A DNA stretch of 64,000 nt from an uncultured Methanobrevibacter sp. (GTDB lineage Archaea; Methanobacteriota; Methanobacteria; Methanobacteriales; Methanobacteriaceae). Shown piece by piece: positions 60,860-64,000 of the stretch. Made by a program: the position numbers and the translations under genes. The number at the start of each line of letters is the position of its first letter. Position 1 is the first letter of the stretch. The DNA lies in NCBI GenBank assembly GCA_900314635.1, contig OMVY01000011.1, positions 1-64,000 of the forward strand. The letters run 5' to 3'. The notes beneath the pieces were generated by a model, which worked only from the letters and a program-made list of their open reading frames with translations, was not told where the DNA came from and made no database searches.

Positions 60860-61485
60860 ATTATTGTCTGTTCATCATATAATTGTTGGTTAAAATTTTT
60901 CCTTTTTTCTGTTTTCATATGTTTTATTGGATATTAAAGCTATTTTTTTAGTTAAATTTCGGAAATTCCAATGATTTGTGCTTTTTTCTTAATGATATTT
61001 TTAGAATCTTTTGAAAAGTAAAAAAATGTTAATATGTGGTTAACTATTTGTTAAATGAATTAAATTTGTTTTTTTCTAATTTAAATCTTTATAAGCTCAT
61101 CATCTAAATATCTTGTAATATATTTCATAGCACTGACTCTGTTTAACTATTTATTGGTTATTTATTTTACTATTTTTAGTATTTTATTTTACTATTTTTA
61201 GTATTTTATTTTACTATTTTTAGTATTTTATTTTACTATTTTTAGTATTTTATTTTACTTATTTTATTTTACTATTTTTTCAAATTTTATTTAATGGTTA
61301 ATAATTTTTTATCAGGAAATTATTTATATTGTAGTTAAAAATCTGAAATTCCATTTATATATTGTTTTTTATTTAATATATAATTTTAGAGAGTGTTTGA
61401 GAGGTAATGGTTAATGTATAGTTTACTATTTATGAAAATAACCTCATTTTATCCTATTTCATTTCTCATTTAGAATATTTTTATC
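60860..61485. other. gap upstream of the tyrosine recombinase
   Basis: AT-rich sequence with a 22-bp tandem array (61158-61275) described separately. TTTATATATTG near 61351-61361 and ATATATAAT near 61375 are TATA-like. No other gene was recognised. Confidence 0.5.
61158..61275. repeat. 22-bp tandem repeat upstream of the recombinase
   Basis: ATTTTACTATTTTTAGT plus ATTTT repeats at exact 22-bp spacing about four to five times. Each unit contains the small inverted repeat ACTA-TTTT-TAGT. Spacing of two helical turns puts all copies on one face of the helix. Confidence 0.85.
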
Positions 61486-62553
61486 ATGATGATGTCTGAA
61501 GAATTATTGAAAAGATTTTGTTCAAATAGAAACATTAAGTATTCCACGCTTAAGTCCTACAGGTCTGCAATTGCCAAGTATGAGTTCTTTCAGGATATGG
61601 ATATGGGTTCCCTTATGGATGAGGCAATTGTTGAGGAAGATGAAGGAATTTCGCTTAAGAACAGGAAAATTAAAAGCAGATTGTTGGATTTCAGGTCTTT
61701 TTTATTGGATTCAGGTTTGGCTATCAGCACTGTCAGAACCTATTTTTCCAGAATCAAGACATTCTATAGGCATTTTGAAATTGAATTGCCCTATTTGAAT
61801 GAGATCAAGTTTGATGAGGAGTATCTCTCATCATATTTTGACTTGCCTACAAGGGGTGATATCAGGAATGTCTGTTCCATTTCATCTAATGCTTTTAGGG
61901 CGCTTGTTCTTTTCATTTCAAGCAGTGGCTGTGCCAAGGCAGAAACCCTTTCCCTTACTGTTGGTGATTTTGTTAAGGCAAGTGATGATTATCATGATGG
62001 AGGTTCCATTGATGATGTTTTGAATTGCTTGATTGGTAGGAGGGATATTGTTCCTGCATTTTATCTTAAGAGGATAAAGACCAATAAGTTCTATTATGCG
62101 TTTTGCTCTCCTGAAGCAAGCCATCATATTGTGAAGTATCTGATTTCAAGAAAGGGATTGTCATTGGATGATAGGCTTTTTGACTTTACTGACAGTTCAT
62201 TGATCTATAGTTTCAAGAAGGTGAATGATAAGCTGAATATGGGATTCGTAGGGCATTATAGGTTTTTTAGGTCTCATGCTCTGCGTAAGTTTCATGCAAG
62301 CAATATAGGACTCAGTGCTGATATTGTTGATGAGCTGCAGGGAAGAGGAAAGACAAGGGTTCGTGAGGCGTATATGAAGACAAATCCCATCAAGCTGAAG
62401 GAGATTTATATGGGTGCTATGCATAATGTGATGGTCTTTGATGATTGGATTGAAGAGTGTGAAAAAGAGGATGATTGTGTGTTTATTGAGAATCAGGTGA
62501 TAAATGTGATTATTAATTTCACTTTGGATGGAATGGATTATAGGGTGGAATAA
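61486..62553 (+). CDS. tyrosine recombinase / integrase family
   Basis: A 355-aa site-specific recombinase. The N-terminal SAM-like DNA-binding domain includes NIKYSTLKSYRSAIAKY and STVRTYFSRIKTFYRHFE. The catalytic domain has a K in the beta-hairpin (YLKRIKTNKFYY), the H-x-x-R box SHALRKFHASN and a final Tyr in RVREAYMKTN. The first catalytic Arg is unusual: the usual GLR-x-x-E position reads GCAKAE. The start is one of three consecutive ATGs without a Shine-Dalgarno sequence. The stop lies 12 bp before an inverted repeat that flanks the promoter region of an adhesin-like gene. Confidence 0.88.
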   Translation: MMMSEELLKRFCSNRNIKYSTLKSYRSAIAKYEFFQDMDMGSLMDEAIVEEDEGISLKNRKIKSRLLDFRSFLLDSGLAISTVRTYFSRIKTFYRHFEIELPYLNEIKFDEEYLSSYFDLPTRGDIRNVCSISSNAFRALVLFISSSGCAKAETLSLTVGDFVKASDDYHDGGSIDDVLNCLIGRRDIVPAFYLKRIKTNKFYYAFCSPEASHHIVKYLISRKGLSLDDRLFDFTDSSLIYSFKKVNDKLNMGFVGHYRFFRSHALRKFHASNIGLSADIVDELQGRGKTRVREAYMKTNPIKLKEIYMGAMHNVMVFDDWIEECEKEDDCVFIENQVINVIINFTLDGMDYRVE

Positions 62554-62564
62554 TTGGCGTATGT

Positions 62565-62588
62565 GTTTCCATGAAAAAAACATAATAT
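62565..62588 (+). repeat. left arm of the inverted repeat (candidate recombination site)
   Basis: The 24-bp arm begins GTTTCCATGAAA and ends AAACATAATAT. It matches the reverse complement of the right arm at 62818-62841 at 22 of 24 positions; the differences are at 62577 and 62586. It starts 12 bp after the recombinase stop. Confidence 0.8.
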
Positions 62589-62817
62589 TTTCATTGTGGG
62601 GTGATCTTTTTTTAGTAAAATGGTGCTATTTTTCATGTTTAATTGGATTAATTTTAAATTAGGTTAAAAATTATTTAATTAAGTTTATATAGTTTTATTG
62701 ACACACATATATTATATAAAATATATTTTATGAGTAGTAAATCTAGTTTGATAAGATTATTATTTTACCAATACTATTCTGATTTATTTTATAGGAATTC
62801 AATTTTTTAAGGCATTG
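62589..62817. promoter_or_regulatory. probable invertible promoter segment
   Basis: The 229-bp segment between the arms has TATA-like elements TTTATATA (62684-62691) and TTATATAA (62712-62719), the latter palindromic. Read on the plus strand they point at the adhesin-like gene through the right arm. If the segment flips they would point back at the recombinase 3' end. No ORF lies in it. Confidence 0.6.
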
Positions 62818-62841
62818 ATTTTATGTTTCTTTCATGGAAAC
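62818..62841 (-). repeat. right arm of the inverted repeat (candidate recombination site)
   Basis: The arm contains TTTCATGGAAAC at its outer end, the reverse complement of the left arm. It lies 105 bp before the adhesin-like start codon. Confidence 0.8.
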
Positions 62842-62893
62842 CTATAATTTTTCATGCCTTAAGCAAAAGATTGGATTTTATATTTTTCTTTCT

Positions 62894-62914
62894 CTCCTTT
62901 TTTAAAAAAAGGAG
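62894..62914 (+). promoter_or_regulatory. hairpin in the adhesin leader
   Basis: CTCCTTTTTT-A-AAAAAAGGAG is a near-perfect inverted repeat with 10-bp arms, 32 bp before the adhesin start codon and just upstream of its binding site. It could fold in the leader RNA and affect transcript stability or translation. Confidence 0.5.
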
Positions 62915-62946: not shown

Positions 62947-64000
62947 ATGAAATTGAAATATGTTGCGATATTTTTAGTTCTTCTATGCTGTCTCATGGGG
63001 GCTGCAAGCGCAGCGGATGATGTCTCAATAGATGCAGTCGATGCGTCTGTTGATGATGCCGTTGCTGTAGATGCAGTCTCCGAGGACATAGGTGATTTTT
63101 CTGAAGTAGAAGAAACTCCTATTTCTGATGATACAAATATAGGAGATGTTCTTAAAGATATGCAGCCTCATGATATTATTTATGTTAATGGGAGTCTCGA
63201 AGACAATGATCCTGAAGAAGATGATATAACAGGTCAAAGTTGGGAGAATGCATATGGTGATGGAGGATGGGGTTTTATATATGCCTTATCTGATATTACT
63301 GATGGAGGTACTATTTATTTAGCTGATGATACTTACAGCAAAGAAATAGATAATGTTGGAAAAAGTTATACTTTAGTTGGATTTAGTATTGAAAATACAA
63401 TTTTTAATTCTCTTGAAACTCGTATAACTGCATATAATTGTAATAGTAGTGTATTGACATTTATTAATATGACTTTAGTCAATGCAAAAGATCTTACAAT
63501 GACTTCTAATTTTATTAATTGTACCTTTATTAATCCTACAATGACTATGTCAAAGGGTATTGCTGAAATTGAACATTTGGATGAAAAGGCTTATGCTGTA
63601 ACTTCTTATTTGAATTTTGAAAATTGTATTTTTAAAGATATAACTAAAGAATCTTCATTAATAACTCTTTATAAGTATGGTCAAGTAAAATTTACCAATT
63701 GTACTTTTGAAAACATAGTTGCGGATTCCATTGTTGGTAAAAATGGAGACTTCATTGATCAAGACGGAATTTACTTATATGATTGTAAATTCACCAACTG
63801 TAACATTAAGGGTGTTGCAGACATTCCCGGCAATATTGAGATTTTAGACTATTGCGCTATTGAAAACTGTGATTATGACTTTGATGCCACCACTGCTATT
63901 GATAAAGTAGGTGATTATGAGCACAATTACTTGAACGCAACCAAGCTTAAGGTTGTTGCTGTTGACTCTGTTGTTGACATCAGTTCCAGTGAAAAGGGCA
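62947..64000 (+). CDS. adhesin-like surface protein, N-terminal part (runs off window)
   Basis: The frame is open to the last base, giving at least 351 residues. A signal peptide (MKLKYVAIFLVLLCCLMGAA, then SAADD) is followed by an acidic Asp/Ala/Val-rich stretch. A right-handed beta-helix region follows with repeated NCTF and INCTF motifs (NFINCTFINPT, NFENCIFKDI, FTNCTFENIV, FTNCNIKGV). It is the usual layout of Methanobrevibacter adhesin-like proteins. GAGGTGACTAATATA is the binding site. The gene lies directly downstream of the probable invertible promoter. Confidence 0.88.
   Translation, partial: MKLKYVAIFLVLLCCLMGAASAADDVSIDAVDASVDDAVAVDAVSEDIGDFSEVEETPISDDTNIGDVLKDMQPHDIIYVNGSLEDNDPEEDDITGQSWENAYGDGGWGFIYALSDITDGGTIYLADDTYSKEIDNVGKSYTLVGFSIENTIFNSLETRITAYNCNSSVLTFINMTLVNAKDLTMTSNFINCTFINPTMTMSKGIAEIEHLDEKAYAVTSYLNFENCIFKDITKESSLITLYKYGQVKFTNCTFENIVADSIVGKNGDFIDQDGIYLYDCKFTNCNIKGVADIPGNIEILDYCAIENCDYDFDATTAIDKVGDYEHNYLNATKLKVVAVDSVVDISSSEKG

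Follow-up and report, generated by a model that had tools for sequence, protein, structure and literature searches.

A Probable Invertible Adhesin Promoter Beside a Divergent Tyrosine Recombinase in a Methanobrevibacter Genome

Introduction

A short non-coding segment between a recombinase gene and an adhesin gene in the archaeon Methanobrevibacter raises the question of whether a methanogen can switch a surface protein on and off by turning its promoter around. This form of phase variation is well known in bacteria. In the fim switch of Escherichia coli (FimB/FimE) and in the capsule loci of Bacteroides, a promoter lies between inverted sites, a tyrosine recombinase flips it, and the surface genes adjoin. 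The DNA analysed here, referred to as the window, is a stretch of 64,000 nucleotides that makes up nearly all of contig C27 of genome G000. The host is a Methanobrevibacter, and a scan with a single protein gave the rumen Methanobrevibacter MAG Tb.RUG.508 as its nearest named relative. An initial annotation, made from the sequence alone, had proposed an invertible promoter that varies a surface protein, and this proposal is supported by reversed segments in relatives, by the exchange of half-sites between them, and by the recurrence of the whole module. We place the probability at about 0.87 that positions 62560-62846 form a site-specifically invertible promoter which is flipped by the recombinase encoded at 61486-62553 and switches the adhesin on and off.

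Two Inverted Recombination Sites Flank a Segment with a Predicted Promoter

The two 24-nt arms that had been described, 62565-62588 (GTTTCCATGAAAAAAACATAATAT) and 62818-62841, are indeed reverse complements of each other apart from two mismatched positions, 62577 and 62586. They enclose 229 nt, and 105 nt separate the end of the right arm from the adhesin ATG at 62947, both as originally given. The left arm does lie just past the recombinase stop codon (62551-62553), at a distance of 11 nt rather than the 12 bp first reported. The repeat can be extended to 29 nt with 25 matches (62560-62588 and 62818-62846), which brings the start of the left site to 6 nt past the stop codon. Among inverted repeats with a gap of 100-600 nt, this pair scores highest in the 64-kb window, and none of 1000 dinucleotide-shuffled versions of the intergenic region reached its score.

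Alignment of the arms across loci reveals 10-bp half-sites similar to TATGTGTTTC on either side of a 7-bp spacer, and the functional unit appears to be not a 24-bp arm but a 28-bp site that includes this spacer. The left site (62560-62587, + strand) comprises the half-site TATGTGTTTC (62560-62569), the spacer CATGAAA (62570-62576) and the half-site AAAACATAATA (62577-62587), while the inverted right site (62819-62846, - strand) reads TATAGGTTTC, CATGAAA and GAAACATAAAA on its own strand. The window locus thus has the two inverted sites around a short non-coding segment by which an inverton is recognized. Spacers vary from locus to locus, and across eight pairs they differ within the pair at 0 of 56 positions while half-sites differ at 46 of 168, a statistic to be taken as supportive because the spacer limits were set by eye on the very alignments from which it was drawn. 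Matched spacers between divergent half-sites are what strand exchange within the spacer demands. A half-site of a different type, CAGTTCTTT, is found in G115 and in one G012 copy.

The interior (62588-62818), whose homologs occur both ways round in relatives, contains TATA-like elements as had been noted. The TATA box TTTATATA at 62684-62691 points at the adhesin and is the sole exact + strand copy between the recombinase and the adhesin start; the - strand of the segment carries TTTATATA as well. Located 3' of the TATA box at 62741-62756 (+ strand) is the element ATCTAGTTTGATAAGA (also given as ATCTAGNTTGATAAGA), which tracks segment orientation in those copies that have it. In the window, the predicted promoter formed by the TATA box and this conserved element faces the adhesin. 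The adhesin leader contains an A-T-rich hairpin, CTCCTTTTTT..AAAAAAAGGAG, at 62894-62914 (+ strand), and the leader as a whole folds no more stably than shuffled sequences.

The Recombinase and the Adhesin

The gene at 61486-62553 (+ strand) encodes a divergent tyrosine recombinase of 355 aa, which is presumed to act as the invertase. Its identity as a tyrosine recombinase holds at the level of superfamily fold: the predicted structure (pLDDT 80) is best matched in Foldseek by archaeal XerA, an integron integrase (IntI4) and Cre, and the integrase families of NCBIfam and Pfam match it weakly. Membership in the archaeal XerA family (NF040815) was rejected, with a score of 24 bits against a cut-off of 220 bits. 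In an alignment of 35 homologs, H264, R267 and Y296 are invariant, as are K198/K201 in the family alignment. Position 151 is Lys or Arg in 34 of the 35 (Arg in four) and Lys in the window protein. The Arg I position is occupied by Ala with Lys151 adjacent, and an Arg stands at the third His position, so that the active site, as read from the alignment, is unusual. The replacement of Arg I by Ala with a neighbouring Lys counts against the invertible-promoter reading. Approximately 220 bp upstream of the recombinase start lies a 22-bp tandem repeat (61142-61265; 5.5 copies, 94% matches), in which changes in copy number could affect recombinase expression. This repeat is not present in the 145 bp compared upstream of the G004 recombinase.

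On the other side of the segment, a secreted beta-helix adhesin-like protein, presumably under the control of the switch, is encoded at 62947-63999 (+ strand) and beyond. The gene runs past the window to the end of the 64,800-bp contig, which cuts it off before its 3' end, with 618 codons seen and no stop. Its product features the signal peptide MKLKYVAIFLVLLCCLMGAASA and a Beta_helix match below the cut-off, and the G004 ortholog ends in Ig-like Big_1 and Big_3_5 domains. In G004, G015, G002, G014 and G016, the adhesin (sometimes with a second adhesin) is followed by a protein ending in GYKRQKDKEEEE and then by a MotA/ExbB-family protein, with a DUF2149 protein next in G016-C1. Judging from G004, the downstream genes for the membrane-anchored and MotA/ExbB-like proteins would also be under the promoter.

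Recurrence of the Module

The module, consisting of a divergent tyrosine recombinase, paired sites, a TATA-bearing segment and a secreted beta-helix/Ig adhesin, was found at about 10 loci in at least three genera. Within G000 itself, contig C14 encodes a paralogous recombinase (70%), whose gene is followed by arms of 28 nt (27 of them matching) that enclose 394 bp, and then by an adhesin. The same order of genes and sites is seen in G004, G015, G002, G014, G016, G070 and G115 and in the more distant G051. With the exception of that from G051, the adhesin-linked recombinases form a clade with 100/100 support.

Two further copies deviate from this arrangement. In G014-C21 (L149:7880-8212), an adhesin promoter retains the right site alone, with no left site and no recombinase nearby; this copy is apparently locked in the adhesin-facing orientation. 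On contig C35 of G000 (L007:1-4390), which encodes no recombinase of the family, there is a homologous segment whose spacer is the same. Its neighbours to either side are a long adhesin and an adhesin/anchor chimera that is frame-shifted, and its right site is longer by one nucleotide. This could be an either/or switch that has decayed, or a switch on which a recombinase encoded elsewhere acts in trans. The ends of C35 and C27 share 99 identical bases, and no third contig that continues this 99-bp end sequence was found.

Homologous Segments Occur in Both Orientations

Comparison of the segment's orientation among related genomes had been proposed as a check, and three comparisons show it reversed between colinear flanks. 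In G014 and G015, the recombinase and adhesin flanks are colinear while the segment from arm to arm is 96-97% identical but lies on the opposite strand. When the G015 segment is flipped in silico, a single continuous alignment of 2123 bp with G014 results. The outer half-sites of this pair stay in place and the inner half-sites are reciprocally exchanged, which puts the crossover at the spacer, the position expected for site-specific recombination. In G016, two copies with colinear adhesin flanks are opposed: the promoter points toward the adhesin in C13 and away from it in C1, a contig that starts within the segment and of which 99 bp are present in C13 in reverse. Finally, between G000-C14 and G070 the recombinase region is colinear at 85%, the segment is reversed at 78%, and the adhesin flank is again colinear; G084 has the orientation of G070. 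Since related genomes carry the segment both ways, surface phase variation of the bacterial kind seems to be in use among methanogens.

Both orientations were thus seen at homologous loci and not for the window's own copy. The window copy, its G004 ortholog and C35 all face the adhesin, with no flipped form among these assembled copies, and this shared orientation counts against the invertible-promoter reading.

The G014 and G015 loci (L025 and L023) show a second feature. Identity between their switch segments is 96-97% and drops to 77% in the recombinase-side flank, and their recombinases are not sisters in the tree. This suggests that the switch segment moves between lineages apart from the recombinase.

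Proposed Mechanism and Alternatives

For this anatomy, which is conserved and in relatives includes reversed segments, the following mechanism may be proposed. Acting within the 7-bp spacer that the two inverted 28-bp sites have in common, the recombinase at 61486-62553 would recombine them and so flip the segment. In the present orientation the TATA box would drive the secreted adhesin (ON), and after the flip the promoter would be directed into the recombinase gene from its 3' side (OFF). Linkage makes the neighbouring recombinase the presumptive catalyst, transcription is expected to follow segment orientation, and the window's own copy is presumably still active. The adhesin-facing promoter kept by G014-C21 fits the assignment of that orientation as ON.

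Instead of turning the adhesin on and off, the flip might select between two outputs: the adhesin and an RNA antisense to the recombinase, or two different adhesins. The - strand copy of TTTATATA and the position of the C35 segment between two diverging adhesin-type genes are compatible with this, yet the second gene at C35 is frame-shifted, and at C27, C14, G002, G004, G014, G015, G016-C13 and G070 the other side holds only the tail of the recombinase gene. A choice between two outputs is possible and, in our judgement, rather doubtful. It is improbable that the inversions are instead old, rare events fixed between lineages, with the window copy perhaps locked, and no ongoing phase variation. 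No within-strain flip was seen among the assemblies compared, and the longer right site of C35 together with the lost left site of G014-C21 indicates that some copies are decaying. However, the G014 and G015 segments are reversed despite 96-97% identity, two copies are opposed within the single genome G016, and spacers match in every pair.

Two other explanations were rejected as highly implausible. Short-read assemblies may break or mis-join at repeats, and the contigs of G016 C1 and G084 terminate inside the segment, so reversed orientations might be artefacts of assembly; the arms, however, are shorter than the ~99-bp overlap between contigs, and the segments of G014, G015, G000-C14 and G070 lie internal to contigs of 18-106 kb. 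Equally remote is the notion that the arms are attachment sites of an integrated viral element whose integrase persists. Although the recombinase has homologs among the integrases of Methanobacteriales viruses, for example that of MSTV1 at 36.5%, the sites are inverted rather than direct and enclose just a promoter, the adhesin-linked recombinases (G051 excepted) form their 100/100 clade apart from MSTV1, and the module recurs without viral genes.

Relation to Known Systems

The invertible promoter favoured here follows a mechanism already known from bacteria. Like the fim and Bacteroides switches, the window locus combines a short segment, inverted sites, a tyrosine recombinase and a neighbouring surface gene. 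It differs from them in its archaeal TATA promoter, its separate and divergent recombinase family and its secreted beta-helix/Ig adhesin, and also in that the recombinase gene directly adjoins the segment, with the left site just past its stop codon. What appears to be new is a chromosomal system dedicated to this task in an archaeon, with recombinases from an archaeal family to which viral integrases are related.

A review of archaeal tyrosine recombinases (PMC8371274) cites the inversion system of the haloarchaeal virus phiCh1. As with phiCh1, so far as that review's account goes, the window switch would vary an adhesion protein in an archaeal setting through DNA inversion by a recombinase. 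Going by the cited titles, phiCh1 is viral and yields variants of a viral structural/adhesion protein, whereas the window switch is chromosomal and would flip a promoter. The portions of the review covered here contain no chromosomal promoter inversion in an archaeon, and the archaeal precedent in the literature searched, as far as these sources extend, is the virus phiCh1 and not a host chromosome. No description of the present system was found in the literature searched, and an earlier mention is possible. With a chromosomal switch of gut methanogens that occurs in both orientations across relatives, PCR and reads can test archaeal phase variation directly. There is also a practical side, as adhesin-like proteins of Methanobrevibacter ruminantium have been examined as vaccine candidates (PMC2812497). 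For methane mitigation, a phase-variable adhesin would make an unreliable single vaccine target.

A Wider Recombinase Family

Phase-variable hsdS loci, such as that of Streptococcus pneumoniae (PMC4948785), likewise rely on site-specific inversion by a tyrosine recombinase, and sisters of the window recombinase adjoin opposed hsdS genes; those systems invert coding sequence, whereas the window locus would invert a promoter. More distant relatives (~50-57%) adjoin oppositely oriented HsdS genes in G000-C7, G027 and G110 and a single HsdS gene in G124, and PglX-like methyltransferase genes adjoin related recombinases in seven genomes, G041 included. At most of the 50-57% homologs no short inverted repeat lies directly downstream, and many of these adjoin HsdS or PglX-like genes.

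The integrases of the Methanobacteriales viruses MSTV1, vir080 and psiM2 are homologous to the window protein at 30-40% identity. These viral recombinases are mostly annotated as integrases, while neither excision nor integration was seen for the adhesin-linked clade. The homolog carried by MSTV1 is joined by further family members in virus-like contigs; the IMG/VR relatives sit in such contigs and none showed an adhesin-promoter switch. It is likely that the adhesin-linked recombinases and the viral integrases share a common origin. A broader proposal, to which we give even odds, is that Methanobacteriaceae hold a distinct family of phase-variation recombinases, whose active site is atypical and whose kin are viral integrases, with some branches operating invertible adhesin promoters and other branches rearranging HsdS or PglX-like genes. 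Surface and anti-viral defence would then be phase-variable under one enzyme family, and the C27 recombinase may flip the two-gene switch of C35 in trans. Given that sister recombinases are linked to restriction genes and to PglX-like genes, switching may be driven in part by viruses.

Several individual loci of this wider family are of interest in their own right. A third related recombinase (56%) is encoded in G000 C7 (L019:7219-15664), flanked by two opposed HsdS genes and beside HsdM and HsdR. Inverted repeats are present between the HsdS genes, and this is likely an invertible type I restriction specificity locus in the window's own genome. In G041 (L075:8560-18999), a related recombinase adjoins several PglX-like methyltransferase genes in both orientations, pointing to a possible phase-variable BREX-like defence in gut methanogens. 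This genome is probably M. smithii PS, because its integrase match at 1,693,324 falls within the published coordinates of the MSTV1 provirus. A virus-like IMG/VR contig with a related recombinase (L088:9215-10551) features two long inverted repeats (33/38 and 25/29) with a spacing of about 1 kb. Genes with repeated C-terminal motifs lie nearby, and the locus is possibly a viral tail-protein inversion system.
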